From Profundicola chukchiensis (GTDB taxonomy: Bacteria; Bacteroidota; Bacteroidia; Flavobacteriales; Weeksellaceae): a DNA stretch of 64,000 nucleotides. Both the position numbers and the translations under genes were made by a program. The notes below the pieces were generated by a model. That model made no database searches and had not been told where the DNA came from. It worked only from the letters and a program-made list of their open reading frames with translations. The stretch lies in NCBI RefSeq assembly GCF_029664245.1, contig NZ_JANAIE010000003.1:62001-126000 (forward strand). The letters run 5' to 3'. Shown one piece after another: positions 1,894-59,263 of the stretch. Position 1 is the first letter of the stretch. Each line of letters starts with the position of its first letter.

Positions 1894-2484
1894 CTATTTA
1901 TCTGGATTTAATAAAACTACTTTGTTTCTTAAAAGGAGTTTCACGTATCTGCCATATTCATCTTTAGCAGGTTCTATTCTGATGCCTGATTTTTTCAAAT
2001 CGTCAGCTACTTGTCTTAATGCACTCACCGCCTGGACCTTAAATTCATTATCACCATCTACAGCTCTTATAGCTGTAATAAGGCCTTGCCAGTTTATATA
2101 GAATTCTAAATTTACCTCTACCCTATCTTTATTTACATTAGGAAATTCTGTATCTAAAACAGCAAGAATATTGTGCTCTATATTAGCCGATAGACATTCT
2201 ATTAATTCAGTCTTACTACCTTCCAATTCTTCACATCCCGGATAAACCGGAACTTCAACTACCTTGTTTACAACCAAATCTTTCTTATCATGTTTGAGAT
2301 CTTCTTCGATATCGAAACTTTCTTTTTTATCCTTATTAAATAATTCTTCAATAGAAACCGCCGCAAGGGAATCTTTTAGATTAGGTAAAGATTTACTAAT
2401 AGCGATGATACTCCATAATAAAAATAAAATTATGAATAGCCCTATACTTATATAGATGATCGAATTACGTTTTGAGTTTTTCAT
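1894..2484 (-). CDS. TonB-like energy transducer, short paralogue
   Basis: 196 aa. One N-terminal membrane segment (about residues 9-30) is followed by a short acidic/lysine-rich linker and a C-terminal domain containing VPVYPGCE (Cys84) and a second Cys at 97. This is the pattern of Bacteroidetes energy-transducer TonB proteins, which pass proton-motive force from ExbB/ExbD to outer-membrane receptors. It is the last and most diverged of three tandem paralogues, ending in VVLLNPDK like its neighbours (VILQNPDK, VILQNPDY). It lacks their proline-rich linker, so its reach across the periplasm should be shorter. No ExbB, ExbD or receptor gene is adjacent. The terminator at 2543-2568 separates it from the upstream paralogue, so it needs its own promoter. 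Confidence 0.78.
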   Translation of the reverse strand: MKNSKRNSIIYISIGLFIILFLLWSIIAISKSLPNLKDSLAAVSIEELFNKDKKESFDIEEDLKHDKKDLVVNKVVEVPVYPGCEELEGSKTELIECLSANIEHNILAVLDTEFPNVNKDRVEVNLEFYINWQGLITAIRAVDGDNEFKVQAVSALRQVADDLKKSGIRIEPAKDEYGRYVKLLLRNKVVLLNPDK

Positions 2485-2542
2485 GATAATGAAGATACGC
2501 CAATTTGAGTTGAGAAATTACGTTTCCTGCTATATAAAACAT

Positions 2543-2568
2543 AAAAATCCCGCTTAAGCGGGATTTTT
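2543..2568 (-). terminator. Intrinsic terminator after the middle TonB paralogue
   Basis: A perfect 26-bp palindrome: stem ATCCCGCT/AGCGGGAT flanked by A5 and T5. It lies 24 bp past the stop of the 2592-3404 gene on the minus strand. Its core stem ATCCCGC is the same as in the terminator at 3618-3642. Confidence 0.85.
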
Positions 2569-2591
2569 AATCAATAATTAAATTGTTTCAT

Positions 2592-3404
2592 CTATTTGTC
2601 TGGGTTTTGTAAAATAACATTGTTTTGGAAAATCAAGGTAACTTCTTTATCCCCATCCATGGTAGCAGGCTTAATTTTCTTATTTGACTTATTCAAATAT
2701 TTTGAAACGTTTTCCAAAGCTCTCATAGCTTGTGGCATAAATTCTTCATCACCTCTTTTAGCGTTAATATTTACTATTTCACCATCGGTGTTGATATGAA
2801 ATTCAAGTTGTACCTGTACTCTAGGCTTACTAGTTTCAGGGTATTCCGTATCAAGAAATTTCATAAGATCTTTACTTAAGTTATCTCCGAAACATCGAAC
2901 CAACTCACGTTTCTTACCTTCATAAGCTTCACAACCTGGATAAACCGCCATATTAGTGACTCTATTTACAGGAACTGGATCTGGAACTCTTTCTTCTTTG
3001 GGTGCAGCTTGAACTTGATCTAACAATTCATCAATATTAACTCGTACTGGAGTCTTTACATTTACTACCTCTGGAATTCTAGGTTTATTTAGCTCTTGGT
3101 TATCTAAAGGATCAGGCTCAATAGGCTCCAGTGTTTCTTCAATATCTTGAGGAATCAAAGGTGGCGGTGGCAAAGGTTCATCAATTTCCGGCAAAGATTG
3201 CTCCTCTAAAGACCTTTCAGCGATTAAGATACTTGTGGGAGGTGTGGTCTGAACCAATGTAGTTTCTTTCTGCTCCACAGATTCCATTGAGTTTTGTATT
3301 CCAAACAAGCCATATACGCCCAATAGTACGAGGTTAAGACCTAGTAAGAAATAGAGTGTCCGATTTTTGTTTAAACTTTTTTGTTTTGACTTTTTTACTT
3401 CCAT
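2592..3404 (-). CDS. TonB-like energy transducer, middle paralogue
   Basis: 270 aa. Membrane segment at about residues 17-36, then a Pro/Glu-rich periplasmic linker (about 55-110) and the conserved C-terminal region: NRVTNMAVYPGCE with Cys158, Cys171 in VRCFGD, and an ILQNPDK end. The two cysteines are spaced as in both paralogues and could form a disulfide (inference). The predicted role is energy transduction from the inner membrane to TonB-dependent receptors. It is closest to the 3664-4485 gene: the N-terminus MEVKK and most of the C-terminal 130 residues are alike, and the linkers diverge. It begins 187 bp downstream of the preceding terminator, so it is probably transcribed alone. Confidence 0.85.
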   Translation of the reverse strand: MEVKKSKQKSLNKNRTLYFLLGLNLVLLGVYGLFGIQNSMESVEQKETTLVQTTPPTSILIAERSLEEQSLPEIDEPLPPPPLIPQDIEETLEPIEPDPLDNQELNKPRIPEVVNVKTPVRVNIDELLDQVQAAPKEERVPDPVPVNRVTNMAVYPGCEAYEGKKRELVRCFGDNLSKDLMKFLDTEYPETSKPRVQVQLEFHINTDGEIVNINAKRGDEEFMPQAMRALENVSKYLNKSNKKIKPATMDGDKEVTLIFQNNVILQNPDK

Positions 3405-3617
3405 AGTAATTGATTTTAGATTAGTGATTTAATAATACCTATTCAAAGAAAATACTTGATGTTTAACATAAACACAAAATCTAAACCACTATTTGTTAAA
3501 TTCAATACTTTAACAATCAAAAACCTATTCAATACTCATTATCCGAATTAAAATATTATCGATTTCATTTATTCATTACTTTTTAAGAAGTATTTTAATG
3601 AAAAAGTATAAAACAAA

Positions 3618-3642
3618 AAAAATCCCGCATTGAGCGGGATTT
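3618..3642 (-). terminator. Intrinsic terminator after the first TonB paralogue
   Basis: Stem AAATCCCGC/GCGGGATTT (3620-3628 with 3634-3642), 5-nt loop, followed on the minus strand by a U tract (complement of the A8 at 3613-3620). It is 22 bp past the stop of the 3664-4485 gene. Confidence 0.85.
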
Positions 3643-3663
3643 CTATTTATTATTTAAATTTTC

Positions 3664-4485
3664 CTAGTAATCTGGGTTTTGCAGAATTACGTTATTTTGG
3701 AATATTAATGTTGCTTTACTACCATCAGCCATAGTTGCAGGTTCGATTTTCTTACCTCTACGAACTAGGTTGTCAGCAGCTCTTTCTAAAGCTCTCTTCG
3801 CCTCTGGTTTGAAAATGTTATCACCAGCTTTAGGGTTAACATTTATAATCTCACCTGTAGGGCTTACGTGGAACTCTAACTGAACGGCAACTCTTTCTTT
3901 ATTAACATCAGGGAACTCAGTATCTAAGTAACGCATAATGTCTTTAGATAAGTTATCACCAAAACATTTAATTAGTTCACGTTTTTTACCTCTGAATTTT
4001 TCACAACCTGGATAAACAGCCATGTCCTTAACACGATTCACCGTTACTGGTTCAGCAACACGCTCTTCTTTTGGAGCAGCTTCTGTTTGCGTTTTAAGTC
4101 CAGACAAATCTACTTTCTTCACTGGGCCAGTTGCAGGCGGACCTGTTGGCATTGGTGGAGGCGTATGCTTTTGTTCTTGGATTGGAGGTGGCGGAACTGG
4201 TTCCGGTGTTTCCTCAATCTCTTCTGGAATTGGCGGTGGCGGTGGTGGTGGCGGCTCATCACTTGGTGGTGGTGGCGGTGGTGGAGTTTCCGGTTCTGGA
4301 ATCTCGATCAACATAACTTCAGATGTTTCTACAACTTCTGGTGCTTCTTCTATAACAACCTCATCAGCTGTGTTTTGGTAACTAAATAATCCCCAAACTA
4401 TAAGAAGTACTACGTTTAAACCACCTAAAAAATAGAGCATGTTATTGCCTTTTAGGCTTGCTTTATTTGTTTTTTTTACTTCCAT
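3664..4485 (-). CDS. TonB-like energy transducer with polyproline linker
   Basis: 273 aa. Membrane segment at residues 16-36, then a strongly proline-rich stretch (about 63-112, including runs of 7 and 8 prolines) typical of the rigid TonB periplasmic spacer. The C-terminal domain carries AVYPGCE (Cys161) and Cys174 and ends ILQNPDY. It is the upstream copy of a three-gene tandem array. Overlapping reading frames on the opposite strand at 4022-4389 are by-products of the proline codons. No exbB/exbD or receptor gene is nearby, so it probably shares ExbBD encoded elsewhere. The promoter lies in the 240-bp gap above it; I see only a near-consensus -7 (TAGATTTTG). Confidence 0.87.
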   Translation of the reverse strand: MEVKKTNKASLKGNNMLYFLGGLNVVLLIVWGLFSYQNTADEVVIEEAPEVVETSEVMLIEIPEPETPPPPPPPSDEPPPPPPPPIPEEIEETPEPVPPPPIQEQKHTPPPMPTGPPATGPVKKVDLSGLKTQTEAAPKEERVAEPVTVNRVKDMAVYPGCEKFRGKKRELIKCFGDNLSKDIMRYLDTEFPDVNKERVAVQLEFHVSPTGEIINVNPKAGDNIFKPEAKRALERAADNLVRRGKKIEPATMADGSKATLIFQNNVILQNPDY

Positions 4486-32591: not shown

Positions 32592-35252
32592 TTGAATAAA
32601 TTCATTCTTTTCCTTTTTTTGTTTATAATTTCTAAGGTCTTATTTGCCCAGCAAAACCTAAAAGGAAATATTAGCTTAGAAGACTCCGGAACTCCCAATG
32701 CAGTTCACGTAGTTCTAAAGAACGCTGAAAATAGAGATCAAATACTTTCATTTACACAAACCAACGCTGAAGGGAAATATCAATTTGATTTATCCAAAAT
32801 TTTATCGAATAAACAAGTCAGTATTATTATTATTGAGGTTTATAAGGTCAATTATATAAAACAAGAAAAAGAATTAAACTTAAAAGACACAGAGCAGCAC
32901 ATTCAAGTTGATTTTCATTTAGCGTCTTTGATTCAATTGGAGCCTATTATCATTACAGCTGATAAAAAACCTGTACGCGTTAAAAACGACACGGTGAGTT
33001 ACAATGCCGAATCATATAAGGATGGTACAGAAAGAGTGGTAGAAGATTTACTCAGGAAATTACCAGGCATTGATGTCGACGAACAAGGGAGAATTAAATA
33101 CAAAGGAAAGCACATTGAACGTGTTCTACTCCAAGGGGACGACCTTTTTAATTATAATTATACCATAGGAACCAAGAATATATCGGTTGATATAATCGAT
33201 GAGGTTGAAGCCATTGAAAATTGGAGTGAAAATCCACTTTTAAAGAAAATAGAAAATTCAAAATCTGTTGTTCTTAACTTAAAATTAAAGAAAGGATTAA
33301 GCGATGTTTCTCTTTTTGGCTATGGAGGTTATGGCATAAAAGATAGGGTTGACAGTGGTCTTAACTTACTTTCGGTGGCTCAAAAAAACAAAAACTTCTC
33401 GACATTATCCTATAATAATCTGGGAGAAAACCGATCGCCCTATGCTATTTATGAATCAGGCTTTTCGGAGCAAGATTATCTTTTCTACAAATTCAGGAGT
33501 GATTTGTTAATACATGAAATGATGGGTTCAAATCAATTGTCCACTGAAAGAAACAACTCCAATCAACAATGGTTTGCGAGTATGAATCACATTGCCAATG
33601 TATCGAAAAAGTTTGCTTTGAGATTCAATTTAAATTATGTTGATGATTTCTATCGTAAAATGGATAGAGACAACACCGATTATTTCTTAGATGGGCAGCC
33701 GATTCAAAATAACTTTGAGGAAAGTATATCACAGAAAAAACCTCAAATCTATCAAGGAGATGTGCTGGCGAAAATAAAATTTAATGATCGTTCCTTGACC
33801 GAAATATCGACGAATTTCAACGCATCAGAAAGTGTTTTTTCAAATCAAACCTTAAGTAATCGCTCCAGTTCCTTTAATTCTATCCTTGAATCCAAACCAG
33901 AACTTTGGGTAAATGAATTGAAGCATACCTATAAAATGAACGATACCAATGCTTTGCAATTTAGCGCTATCTATGCTAAGCATGAAGCCACACAAAACAA
34001 CAGCATCGATATTGGCTTAGATATTCATTCCGACGAAATATTTGAAAATGGGTATACGCTTCAAGAAATTGCACAGCAGAAAGAAACATTTCAATTTTCG
34101 AGTAAATTTTTATCCTCAGACAAGAATGAAAACAAATTAGAAATCGAAGGTGTTTTTAATTTCAACAAGGAGAGTTTACATTCAAATCTTTTGACTGATA
34201 ATTCATTAATATCTAAAAATGATATGATCTTGAAAATGATGGAGTTCACTTTGAGTGTTAAAAAAGCTTATGATTTCAAACGATGGAAGTTGATTCCAGC
34301 TTTACAAGCTAAAAATTTTATGATAGAAAATGAAGATTTTCTTTTGAATAAAACATTAGATAAAAATCAATTTTTTCTAGCTCCATCCTTGTCCTTACAT
34401 TATCAATTGGCAAGTAGATTAAAAGTATTTTTAAACCTAAACTATAACGAAGTTGCGCCAGAAAGTCGAAATTTATTTAATGATTGGATCATGCAATCAC
34501 ATCGTTATTTTAAACAGAATCAACCCAATCTTGCCTTTAGAAAAACTTTAATGACAACTTTGGGCTACACCTATTATAATTTAAGAAAACAGGAGAAATT
34601 CGTTGTTGGTCTCGCCAGATATAGCAATGCTAATAATCCCTCTACCCAAAGTTATATCAGCGAAAACTTTGTATTGAATGAACAGTTTAATTTATCTGCA
34701 AAAAATAAAAATTATTCTGCGCATGTGGAATTAGAAAAATATCTTCACATCTTTAGGTCAACCTTTAAATTATCTGGAAATTATCTTTTTTCTGAATACA
34801 ACAATGTTGTTAATAACTCCCAGTTAAGGCTTAATCAATCAAATCAATGGAAAGCGGAATTAGGCTTAAAAACAGCATTTAATTTTCCGTTTAATTTTAG
34901 TAATAACTTAAAATGGAATCAAATTAATTTCAGCTCCAGCCAAGATTTCACAAATTCAAACAGCTTAATTTCCAATAATTTTAAACTTATTTTTAAAAAA
35001 GATATTTGGTCGGCTAATCTTGGATTTGATTATTATCACAATGACATCAGATCGAAGCAACCTATTTACTTCCTTGATTCTGAAGTTAAATTTAGACCCA
35101 AGCAAAAATCATGGTCTTTTGCGCTGATATCAAAAAACTTGCTCAACATGAAGTACTATGAAAGCACCAACGTGACAGATTATTATATACATCAGATGAG
35201 ACAATCACTGAATCCAAGATATATTCTATTGAAAATGGATTTCAGATTGTAA
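32592..35252 (+). CDS. TonB-dependent receptor-like outer-membrane protein paired with GLPGLI
   Basis: 886 aa. The start is a TTG at 32592; the signal peptide ends VLFAQQ. The N-terminal carboxypeptidase-regulatory-like domain (about 22-110) leads to a plug-like domain (about 120-220: ERVVEDLLRKLPGIDVDEQG, VLLQGDDLF) and a beta-barrel up to the end (LKMDFRL). Such proteins are often annotated as TonB-dependent receptors or outer-membrane beta-barrel proteins. The substrate is unknown; pairing with the cysteine-tailed GLPGLI protein suggests joint function, perhaps in peptide or metal handling (inference). Confidence 0.85.
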   Translation: MNKFILFLFLFIISKVLFAQQNLKGNISLEDSGTPNAVHVVLKNAENRDQILSFTQTNAEGKYQFDLSKILSNKQVSIIIIEVYKVNYIKQEKELNLKDTEQHIQVDFHLASLIQLEPIIITADKKPVRVKNDTVSYNAESYKDGTERVVEDLLRKLPGIDVDEQGRIKYKGKHIERVLLQGDDLFNYNYTIGTKNISVDIIDEVEAIENWSENPLLKKIENSKSVVLNLKLKKGLSDVSLFGYGGYGIKDRVDSGLNLLSVAQKNKNFSTLSYNNLGENRSPYAIYESGFSEQDYLFYKFRSDLLIHEMMGSNQLSTERNNSNQQWFASMNHIANVSKKFALRFNLNYVDDFYRKMDRDNTDYFLDGQPIQNNFEESISQKKPQIYQGDVLAKIKFNDRSLTEISTNFNASESVFSNQTLSNRSSSFNSILESKPELWVNELKHTYKMNDTNALQFSAIYAKHEATQNNSIDIGLDIHSDEIFENGYTLQEIAQQKETFQFSSKFLSSDKNENKLEIEGVFNFNKESLHSNLLTDNSLISKNDMILKMMEFTLSVKKAYDFKRWKLIPALQAKNFMIENEDFLLNKTLDKNQFFLAPSLSLHYQLASRLKVFLNLNYNEVAPESRNLFNDWIMQSHRYFKQNQPNLAFRKTLMTTLGYTYYNLRKQEKFVVGLARYSNANNPSTQSYISENFVLNEQFNLSAKNKNYSAHVELEKYLHIFRSTFKLSGNYLFSEYNNVVNNSQLRLNQSNQWKAELGLKTAFNFPFNFSNNLKWNQINFSSSQDFTNSNSLISNNFKLIFKKDIWSANLGFDYYHNDIRSKQPIYFLDSEVKFRPKQKSWSFALISKNLLNMKYYESTNVTDYYIHQMRQSLNPRYILLKMDFRL

Positions 35253-35309
35253 AATGGAAGATAATAATGGGCATAAGTTTTTAGCAAACAAGAATTTCAA
35301 ATAAGGCAT

Positions 35310-35338
35310 AAAAAAATCGGTAGGGCTCCCCCTACCGA
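35310..35338 (-). terminator. Orphan intrinsic terminator on the minus strand
   Basis: A 9-bp stem TCGGTAGGG/CCCTACCGA (35317-35325 with 35330-35338), 4-nt loop, followed on the minus strand by U7. On the plus strand no T tract follows. Both flanking genes are on the plus strand, so nothing annotated needs it. Confidence 0.6.
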
Positions 35339-35362
35339 CCACTAACCATAAAAACTCTTATT

Positions 35363-35386
35363 ATGAAAACTACTTCTTTATTATAA
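35363..35386 (+). other. Seven-codon mini-ORF behind the hairpin
   Basis: ATG AAA ACT ACT TCT TTA TTA TAA, preceded by an A-rich ACCATAAAAACTCTTATT leader. It could be a leader peptide or the remains of a gene start; too short to support on its own. Confidence 0.25.
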
Positions 35387-35526
35387 AAAAGGATTTCATT
35401 GGCAAATGTCCGACAATTTAAAAAACCCGAGTGTAACAAAGATTACATAATAGTCACCTTACCAAAATTCCGTTTTAATTCAATCTACAGAAAGTTTTGT
35501 AGTTTTATAAAATTATTACTTTAGAT

Positions 35527-37197
35527 ATGAATAAACTTCTTCTATTATTCTTGCTTGTTGCTATGTTATATTCGTGTAAAACAGTTAAAAAAACAACCGA
35601 ATCTACTCCACCTCAGCCAAGCGTGCAAAAAGATAACTTCCTATGGGAGAACGCCAACTTTTATTTCCTATTAACCGATCGTTTCAAAAACGGAGATACG
35701 TCCAATGATAATAATTTCGAAAGAAATAAAGGAGCAGATGTGTTGAGAGGTTTTGAAGGAGGAGATTTACGTGGTATCATTCAAAAAATTGATGATAATT
35801 ATTTCACTGACCTAGGGGTTGATGCGATTTGGATGACGCCTATCGTAGAACAAATACATGGTGGTACCGATGAAGGAAGCGGAAAAACTTATGCCTACCA
35901 TGGTTACTGGACAAAGGATTGGACTGCTTTAGATCCCAATTTCGGAACTAAAGAAGATTTAAGAGAATTAGTACAAAAAGCCCATGCCAAAGGAATTAGA
36001 ATTGTATTAGACGCTGTGGTTAATCACACAGGTCCTGTTACAGAAATAGATCCTGCTTTCCCGTCGGATTGGGTGAGAACTGGACCAGCTTGTACTTACG
36101 AGGATTACAAAAGCACCGTAGAGTGTACCTTGGTAGAGAACCTACCCGATATTTTAACCGAAAACAACGAGAATGTTGAACTACCAGATCAATTGGTAAA
36201 AAAATGGAAAGAAGAAGGTAGATATAGAGAAGAAATGGAAAGCCTTGATGCTTTTTTCAAAAAGACAGGCTATCCACGTGCGCCAAAATATTATATCATG
36301 AAATGGTTGGCGGATTATATCACCGAATTTGGAATTGATGGTTATCGTGTAGATACGGTTAAGCACACTGAAGAAGATGTTTGGGCAGATTTTTCAAAAA
36401 TTACACAAATGGCTTTTGAAGAATATAATGCCAAGTTGCCAAGATCTAAGCGTTCAAAATCTGATTTCTTTTTAGTAGGTGAGGTTTATGGTTACGGTAT
36501 CGGACAAAGAGAGTTCTATAACTTCCCGGATAAGAAGGTGAATTATTTTGATTATGGATTCCCAGCGCTTATTAATTTTGATTTTAAGCAAGATGCTACT
36601 CAATCTTTCGAAGAGTTATTCTCCTCTTATTCAGATATCTTAAACAATGAAATGCCTGGCAAAATGGTGATGAACTATTTAAGTTCGCACGACGACGGAC
36701 AGCCTTTTGATAAATTAAGAGAAACTCCATACGACGCAGGAACTTTATTGCTTTTATCTCCAGGAATTTCACAGATTTATTATGGTGATGAAACGGCTCG
36801 TCCACTAGAAGTTAAAGGCGCAAAAGGTGATGCTAATTTAAGATCAAACATGAATTGGGAAGACATAGAAAATGATCTTGAAACCAAAAGTATTTTAGAG
36901 CATTTCCAGAAATTAGGAAAATTTAGACAAAAGCATCCTGCTGTTGGTGCTGGAGTTCATCAAATGATTTCAGACGACCCTTATTGGTTTAAAAGAACCT
37001 ACAACAAAAATGATATCGAAGATATTGTAGTGATTGGATTAGACTTACCGGTTGGTGTAAATACAGTTGATGTTTCAAGCGCTTTTGAAAATGGTCAGCG
37101 TGTAAGAGATGCCTATTCTGGCATTGTAACCCATGTAAAAAACGGAAAAGTTCGTCTAGAGCTAGATGAATCGATTGTGTTGTTAGAGAAGTATTAA
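35527..37197 (+). CDS. GH13 alpha-amylase-family lipoprotein
   Basis: 556 aa. A lipobox YSC (Cys17) indicates a lipoprotein, probably periplasmic or surface. The four GH13 regions are present: DAVVNHTG (162-169), GYRVDTVKH with nucleophile Asp276, GEVYG with acid/base Glu319, and SSHDDG with Asp389. A TIM-barrel (about 40-460) is followed by a short beta domain. The subfamily cannot be told; it should cleave alpha-glucans or maltodextrins. No SusC/SusD pair or other glycosidase adjoins, so it is not part of a visible polysaccharide locus. Candidate -33 TTG/17 bp/TACTTTAG ends 2 bp before the ATG, giving a nearly leaderless transcript if used. Confidence 0.92.
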   Translation: MNKLLLLFLLVAMLYSCKTVKKTTESTPPQPSVQKDNFLWENANFYFLLTDRFKNGDTSNDNNFERNKGADVLRGFEGGDLRGIIQKIDDNYFTDLGVDAIWMTPIVEQIHGGTDEGSGKTYAYHGYWTKDWTALDPNFGTKEDLRELVQKAHAKGIRIVLDAVVNHTGPVTEIDPAFPSDWVRTGPACTYEDYKSTVECTLVENLPDILTENNENVELPDQLVKKWKEEGRYREEMESLDAFFKKTGYPRAPKYYIMKWLADYITEFGIDGYRVDTVKHTEEDVWADFSKITQMAFEEYNAKLPRSKRSKSDFFLVGEVYGYGIGQREFYNFPDKKVNYFDYGFPALINFDFKQDATQSFEELFSSYSDILNNEMPGKMVMNYLSSHDDGQPFDKLRETPYDAGTLLLLSPGISQIYYGDETARPLEVKGAKGDANLRSNMNWEDIENDLETKSILEHFQKLGKFRQKHPAVGAGVHQMISDDPYWFKRTYNKNDIEDIVVIGLDLPVGVNTVDVSSAFENGQRVRDAYSGIVTHVKNGKVRLELDESIVLLEKY

Positions 37198-58529: not shown

Positions 58530-58537
58530 TACATTTG
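58530..58537 (+). promoter_or_regulatory. -7 element TACATTTG of the Crp/Fnr gene
   Basis: A perfect TAnnTTTG. It overlaps a TTG at 58535, so the ATG at 58556 is the start, with a leader of about 15 nt. Its -7 and that of ccoI are 12 bp apart, so the two promoters must overlap. Confidence 0.5.
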
Positions 58538-58555
58538 TGTGATAAATATCATTTT

Positions 58556-59263
58556 ATGCCAGAGTTATTAAACGACTTTTCAATACTATATAATTATTTC
58601 AACGATGCAGAAAGTTTAAGCATCTTTACACCCGCTGAAATTCAAGCACTTCAATCAGAAAAGAAAACCTTATCTCCTAAAAAAGGTGAACTGATTATAG
58701 AAGAAGGGCATTCGGCTAATGGTGTATTTTTGGTTAAATCAGGAACCGCCAAATTATTCAAAGTTGGATTCACCGGAAAAGAACAAATTATTCGATTTTG
58801 TAAGAAAGGTGACTTATTAGGTTATCGTTCAATTTTGTCGGGTGAGGCGATTGGAGCATCGGCCATGGCGATTGAGGATATGGAATTAGAATATATTCCA
58901 GAGAAATATTTCCTTAGAATGCTAGCAGAAAACTCTAAAATGGGTTTCGAAATGTTGAAATTAATTTCGAGACAATTAGGAGATGCAGCAGACACCATTA
59001 CTATTTTAGCGCAAAAAACAGTTCGCGAGAGATTGGCAGAGGTACTTATCACCCTTGAAAACACATTGGGTGTAGATGACGACGATTTCATTAGAATCGC
59101 ACTTACTAGAGAAGAAATGGCCAATCTGATTGGTACCGCAACAGAGTCAGCTATTCGCTTGATCAGTGAGTTCAAAAACGATGAACTTATTGAAGTAGAT
59201 GGAAGAAGAATTAAAATTCTTGACCATGCAAAAATTAAAAAATTAGGACATATCGATGCTTAA
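58556..59263 (+). CDS. Crp/Fnr family transcriptional regulator
   Basis: 235 aa from the ATG at 58556. A cyclic-nucleotide-binding-type barrel (about residues 18-140; KKGELIIEEGHSANGVFLVKSG) and a C-terminal helix-turn-helix (LTREEMANLIGTATESAIRLISEF, near 185-208). The FNR N-terminal Cys cluster is absent: only one Cys (FCKKG) is present, so direct [4Fe-4S] oxygen sensing is unlikely. The predicted DNA contact residues are TES.IRL in the recognition helix. Placement against ccoI points to control of microaerobic respiration or copper loading (inference). An 8-bp overlap couples it to the next gene. Confidence 0.92.
   Translation: MPELLNDFSILYNYFNDAESLSIFTPAEIQALQSEKKTLSPKKGELIIEEGHSANGVFLVKSGTAKLFKVGFTGKEQIIRFCKKGDLLGYRSILSGEAIGASAMAIEDMELEYIPEKYFLRMLAENSKMGFEMLKLISRQLGDAADTITILAQKTVRERLAEVLITLENTLGVDDDDFIRIALTREEMANLIGTATESAIRLISEFKNDELIEVDGRRIKILDHAKIKKLGHIDA

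Follow-up and report, generated by a model that had tools for sequence, protein, structure and literature searches.

The orphan terminator and its surroundings

The window analysed here is a stretch of 64 kb that contains, between plus-strand genes, a hairpin of minus-strand terminator type. The plus-strand genes upstream of the hairpin encode a Porph_ging (PF09697) protein and an 886-aa protein with no Pfam match at E ≤ 1e-4, and an amylase gene lies on its other side. The features of the locus are as follows.

35310–35398, minus: predicted FopS-like small RNA (sRNA) gene of about 85–90 nt, both ends approximate (matches of the models RF04319, R2 and R3; conservation in the congener G001)
35315–35340, minus: intrinsic terminator hairpin, with a U-tract extending to about 35310
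35340–35371, minus: predicted main seed AGUUUUCAUAAUAAGAGUUUUUAUGGUUAGUG, complementary to the start-codon leader CACTAACCATAAAAACTCTTATTATGAAAACT; the FopS 5′ seed aligns here
35376–35391, minus: second, upstream seed-like stretch CUUUUUUAUAAUAAAG (CUUUUUCAUAAG-like in relatives), from family alignments
35403–35410, minus: probable −7 box GACATTTG, one letter off TAnnTTTG, placing +1 near 35398; matches the layout of the paralogs
35432–35447, no strand: inverted repeat TGTAA-N6-TTACA, a possible Crp/Fnr-type site centred at −41.5 if +1 is 35398
35363–35386, plus: seven-codon ORF (MKTTSLL and stop), judged not to be a gene, with a frame not conserved in G001
35527–37197, plus: alpha-amylase-family lipoprotein gene (PF00128, E 4.6e-43), the divergent neighbour

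Read on the minus strand from 35340 to 35315, the stem-loop is GGTCGGTAGGG-GGAG-CCCTACCGATT followed by TTTTTATG, and the U7 tract corresponds to the A residues at 35310–35316 of the plus strand. The 9-bp stem and U7 described in an earlier note on this DNA are borne out by the sequence, with nine Watson-Crick pairs (35317–35325 with 35330–35338) closing a four-base loop. The folding z-score of the hairpin was −5.4 on the plus and −3.1 on the minus strand. Terminator-like sites defined by a loose rule were not enriched (3 found and 3.1 expected in 5 kb). With a strict rule (stem of at least 8, at least 5 GC pairs, at most 2 GU pairs and a T-rich tail), eight strand-sites were found in the 64 kb, versus 0 to 1 in each of six shuffles. 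Seven of these are located 3′ of a same-strand ORF or represent the opposite-strand reading of a hairpin that is, and the site at 35315–35340 is the only one that is neither; among the strict sites of the window, it alone has no gene on its strand.

Elsewhere in the window (1894–4485), three adjacent and similar minus-strand proteins, TonB-like by eye, are encoded, and the terminators behind two of them have AATCCCGC..GCGGGATT in common.

Conservation in a congener and the putative promoter

In G001, a genome of the same genus, the element precedes the amylase ortholog (66% identical in protein) by about 0.45 kb and in the same relative orientation, the distance in the window being about 0.19 kb. 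This answers the question of whether it exists outside the strain, which the earlier note had raised. The minus-strand alignment of the two loci has 103 identical positions in 135 ungapped columns and a score of 118, which was reached by none of 500 shuffles (mean 56, sd 7.9, maximum 79). The common stretch starts with the U-tract and extends past the inverted repeat, and the presumed promoter is therefore included. In the genome of the window (G000), in G001 and in G030, the U-run is confined to the minus side. Another congener, G002, gave no match at E ≤ 0.1 with R1, one of three family models described below (R1–R3).

Two explanations without a functional RNA have to be weighed at this point. 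The hairpin might be a chance terminator-like structure or belong to a decayed sRNA copy without function, as the divergence of this copy, its weak promoter and the lack of an R1 match in G002 could suggest. However, the extent of the identity with G001, where the amylase itself has diverged to 66%, and the rarity of such hairpins in shuffled DNA argue against this, and we regard it as unlikely. Alternatively, the terminator may do no more than halt minus-strand transcription before the upstream outer-membrane gene, with no discrete RNA being made. Its direction is the correct one and it sits between two plus-strand genes, but it would account neither for the paralogs nor for the conservation of the 5′ part and of the stretch that follows it, and we regard this explanation as highly improbable. 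A minus-strand sRNA gene ending at the terminator is the reading that we prefer.

Such a gene would be transcribed away from the amylase gene, and its product would consist of an A/U-rich 5′ part followed by the terminator. A near-consensus −7 sequence had been noted around 35437–35445, with a possible RNA of roughly 100–130 nt. The sequence is real (AATCTTTG on the minus strand, one letter off TAnnTTTG and within the inverted repeat at 35432–35447), but GACATTTG at 35410–35403 fits the layout of the paralogs better. With this box, a short minus-strand RNA is still predicted, in line with the FopS-like match, the G001 element beside the amylase ortholog and the paralogs, but its length would be 85–90 nt. 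The choice of box is uncertain, since it is one of four on the minus strand between 35395 and 35526, each of them one letter off. The start near 35398 assumes a box at −12 to −5, the position given for F. psychrophilum in PMC9723704. The counterpart in G001, CAACTTTG, is found at a like place and is also one letter off; the −7-like box precedes the upstream seed by 9–11 bases in the window locus (about 11) and in G001. Paralogs on contig C21 of G000 and contig C11 of G001 have TATATTTG and TATTTTTG, respectively, 7 nt before this seed. At the window locus (L256), the −7 box is imperfect and not unique, no good −33 box was found, a sigma-70 consensus scan yielded nothing convincing, and no sigma-54 GG-N10-G (−24/−12) box precedes the locus.

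The inverted repeat, centred at −41.5 in the window, has a counterpart in G001 (TGTAA-N6-TCACA) centred at −40.5. A centre near −41.5 is typical of Crp/Fnr activators, and a regulator of the Crp/Fnr type is encoded in the window at 58535–59263. It is possible that a protein of this type activates the sRNA from the repeat. The motif was not enriched genome-wide (44 sites with at most one mismatch, 43 for the reversed control).

Likeness to FopS and a family in the Weeksellaceae

A comparison with Rfam, proposed in the earlier note, gave no match at the gathering threshold, either at the predicted sRNA locus or elsewhere in the 64-kb window. At permissive settings, RF04319 (BTncRNA_FopS) aligned over its full length (model positions 1–71 of 71) with minus 35373–35307, at 36.9 bits (E 3.9e-4 for 301 bases searched), but this falls below the gathering cut-off of 56. 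The alignment comprises the 5′ seed and then the terminator, and parts of the 5′ section can pair weakly in the fold. In scans with filters that lose weak matches, none of 99 relatives exceeded the cut-off, and the only match at E ≤ 0.1 in G000 was the window locus (E 7.9e-4). G002 has a weak match elsewhere (26.9 bits). The matches L184, L188 and L190 were judged to be look-alikes, being either antisense to a gene start or ordinary 3′ ends, and were kept out of our models, as were other weak matches in relatives. Because several RF04319 matches are of this kind, our conclusion is not rested on the match in the window. The match to RteR (RF04181) was weak (24.6 bits, E 0.092), far under its cut-off of 72.

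According to PMC11697453, FopS of Bacteroides thetaiotaomicron comprises 14 paralogous RNAs, about 65 and 70 nt long, each with a seed and a terminator. They pair with susC-like mRNAs and with some glycoside-hydrolase mRNAs in the start region and are antagonised by RbpB; conservation is described there for Bacteroidaceae. The window RNA would resemble FopS in being short, paralogous and composed of a 5′ seed (UUUUCAU..GGUUA in FopS) and a terminator, with the seed antisense to start codons (PMC11697453). It would differ in its length (about 85–90 nt) and in its order, Flavobacteriales, and in its relatives there are boxes of the sigma-54 type and a further seed upstream. GibS, with two seeds of which one is common with FopS (PMC11697453), is likened to the window RNA by its description. 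The locus probably encodes a small regulatory RNA of FopS-like build that is not, by score, a member of RF04319.

Three models were used to search for relatives. R1 was built from six sequences, the window locus among them, and gave matches at E ≤ 0.1, mostly weak, in 158 of 320 family genomes. At E ≤ 1e-4 there were matches in 22 of the 320, five of which had supplied training sequences; among the new strong matches are those in 13 of the 14 g21 genomes, and copies arranged in rows in the genera g10 and g17. R2 was made from 18 sequences, leaving out the window locus and its G001 ortholog, and R3 with nothing from the genus. Both ranked the window locus first in the 64 kb: R2 at 32.7 bits (E 6.7e-4; next 19.9) and R3 at 31.4 bits (E 0.0019; next 21.0), matching the minus strand at 35309–35391. 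R3 aligned there over positions 1–85 of 85, with the two seeds and the terminator in the order of the family. The G001 ortholog scored 38.8 bits with R2 and 36.3 with R3. The best R3 score in 172 kb of 57 other loci of the same genome, which had been chosen because they resemble parts of the element, was 27.3 bits, 4 below the window locus. By proportion, the E value would be about 0.08 for the whole genome, so that the score is modest at this scale; we therefore grade the window copy as a probable, divergent member of the Weeksellaceae family on the strength of its score, its ortholog and its terminator together.

The terminator stem of the family covaries with a score of 0.603, versus 0.238 ± 0.042 in shuffles (0 of 500 as high) and at most 0.207 when the stem is slid, although these shuffles overstate the case because the sequences are related. 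Changes on both sides are seen in six of the seven terminator pairs, a less striking result that was reached by 26 of 500 shuffles.

Rfam searches of ten family loci at the cut-offs yielded only Flavo-1, beside one member. Flavo-1 RNA (RF01705) scored above its cut-off next to family members at L023:1180–1335 (+) and L250:1628–1728 (−), and in G001 it is located between the sRNA and the amylase gene.

The start leader on the plus strand and the predicted targets

On the plus strand, the hairpin is followed by the leader ACCATAAAAACTC at 35345–35357 and by the seven-codon ORF. Both sequences exist as the earlier note described them, but a working mini-ORF leader is not borne out: the ORF has 18 codons in G001, with MKT in common and the remainder different, and no full TAnnTTTG box was found on the plus strand in 35200–35316 (TAAGTTTT at 35274 is one letter off). 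The pattern TAACC-N(1-4)-AAAAC-N(2-10)-TATGAAAA was present in 123 of 320 family genomes, more often than its reversed control (per-genome table), and in many of 30 fetched loci it begins a gene for a signal-peptide or exported protein, as judged by eye. We therefore take it for a general start leader and rejected it as a conserved leader specific to this locus. When single fixed patterns were searched for, there was no clear excess over the control. DNA searches of the 320 genomes with the G001 element returned mostly general leaders, whose letters in common inflate the likeness between unrelated loci. The peptides of the mini-ORFs in G000 and G001 are alike, which is better explained by the sRNA promoter region on the opposite strand.

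Two AT-rich 5′ regions of G000 with GTTTTCATAATAACAATTT and the same start pattern (C43:330157 and 401228; L218 and L219) were considered as paralogs and proved to be 5′ regions of other genes, at least one preceding a small exported protein gene.

The hairpin, leader and short ORF might nevertheless form a 5′ region controlling the amylase gene, or the remnant of a small exported-protein gene, in which case the FopS match would be the antisense of a start region. The plus strand does read as a typical start leader, and the look-alikes mentioned above illustrate how such FopS matches can arise. However, no gene follows the leader, the frame is not conserved and the U-run is confined to the minus side in the three genomes; furthermore, the minus-strand element is recovered by models that were made from other loci and that cover both the upstream seed-like stretch and the terminator. 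We consider a plus-strand leader rather unlikely. A start leader without a gene is the expected appearance of the complement of an anti-start seed, and the leader and the ORF look like a by-product of the sRNA seed on the other strand.

The best explanation, to which we assign a probability of roughly two thirds, is a stand-alone minus-strand sRNA that belongs to a multicopy flavobacterial family resembling FopS and most likely acts in trans by start-codon pairing. The seed (AGUUUUCAUAAU...) would cover the start codon of mRNAs that encode exported proteins, and initiation would be blocked. Translational repression as by FopS appears to be the likeliest mechanism by analogy, since the seed is antisense to the typical flavobacterial start leader. 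Pairing with 33 gene starts of the window (the ATG ones listed, of 47 ORFs) was no better than with coding controls (−12.0 versus −12.2 kcal/mol), 43 of 200 shuffled RNAs paired with these starts as well as the sRNA, and seed-like sites in the genome were no commoner than those of the reversed control (30 versus 31). Start-codon pairing is therefore proposed by likeness to FopS. The best single seed-like sites were at the starts of genes that, as judged by eye, encode two lipoproteins (L215 and L216) and a secreted protein (L217).

To our knowledge, post-transcriptional control in Flavobacteriales has barely been charted, and the predicted sRNA points to a little-explored layer of RNA control in flavobacteria.

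Paralogs, sigma-54-type boxes and tandem arrays

Several probable paralogs in the same genome were recognised with R2 and R3, and not with RF04319. G000 has a probable second copy on C21 (38.3 bits), which stands behind the same kind of gene as the C11 copy of G001, and three probable copies in a row on C65 (35.7, 24.9 and 24.8 bits), one of them at the contig end. The two lower C65 scores are under the best background of 27.3 bits, and these copies rest on their place in the row. As sigma-54-type boxes, the first two C65 copies have TTTGGCACACGAATTGC and TTTTGGCACATGAATTGG, whereas the contig ends within the third.

A seed-pattern scan of the genome collection yielded 22 stretches, of which 20 contained R3 matches at E ≤ 0.01 (42 in total; none at this level in L296 and L298). 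The scan is not an independent test, since 10 of the 42 copies equal a training sequence and the family itself supplied the seed pattern. The named hosts are Empedobacter, Moheibacter, Apibacter, Algoriella and Faecalibacter (Weeksellaceae), together with Vaginella (Flavobacteriaceae according to NCBI), a 'Weeksellaceae bacterium' record and flavobacterial MAGs.

GG-N10-G is the −24/−12 pattern of sigma-54 promoters. Among the 42 copies in named records, 39 had it, as GG[CT]A-N7-TG, within 60 bases upstream, and the reversed pattern preceded none. The copies are related, and 37 of the 39 upstream stretches are distinct. The box ends 7–8 or 19–21 bases before the modelled start, and the three copies without it are array units. 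A differently drawn sigma-54 pattern was found at 22 of 29 R1 loci, the window locus being one of the seven without it.

In G112 (genus g17, inferred to be Apibacter), there were 11 R1 matches over about 2.2 kb, mostly 170–185 bp apart, and 12 by R2. Tandem sRNA arrays were also seen in L278 (G081), L279 (G093), L286, L288, L290, L293 and L294 (Apibacter), in addition to that of G112 (L277), and nearly all units have their own −24/−12 box and terminator.

The Qrr sRNAs of Vibrio are multicopy, depend on sigma-54 and pair near start codons. The Weeksellaceae family looks similarly organised, with no sequence relation claimed, and the window copy differs from Qrr in having no sigma-54 box. None of the papers listed in searches of the PMC literature dealt with such a family in Weeksellaceae. 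We tentatively suggest, at slightly under even odds, that Weeksellaceae have an undescribed multicopy and mostly sigma-54-driven sRNA family, with Apibacter arrays of up to about 11–12 units carrying their own promoter and terminator, that would act together to silence many mRNAs for exported proteins at their start codons, and that the window copy, next to the amylase gene, may have exchanged sigma-54 for control of the Crp/Fnr type. If true, a FopS-like RNA outside Bacteroidaceae with paralogs of the sigma-54 type would suggest that start-codon-pairing sRNA families form a layer of control in Bacteroidota that is old or was built repeatedly, and the tandem arrays would offer a ready system to test why bacteria keep many copies of one sRNA.

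Another Flavobacteriales family (f2), with several very similar FopS-like loci per genome, was observed in G051 and G036 (L185, L187, L209 and L210; RF04319 scores of 33.8–40.5 bits), and two of these loci have a 40-nt stretch upstream of the seed in common. These loci and L034 (G030) were aligned but are not part of R1–R3. L209 gave no match with R2 or R3 at E ≤ 1; R2 scored L185, L187, L210 and L034 at 16–26 bits, and R3 scored L187, L210 and L034 at 18–21. The G030 locus (L034:1496–1566, +; R2 19.9 and R3 20.5 bits) has a similar seed and hairpin behind a HIT-type gene, somewhat like the 3′UTR-derived FopS-14.
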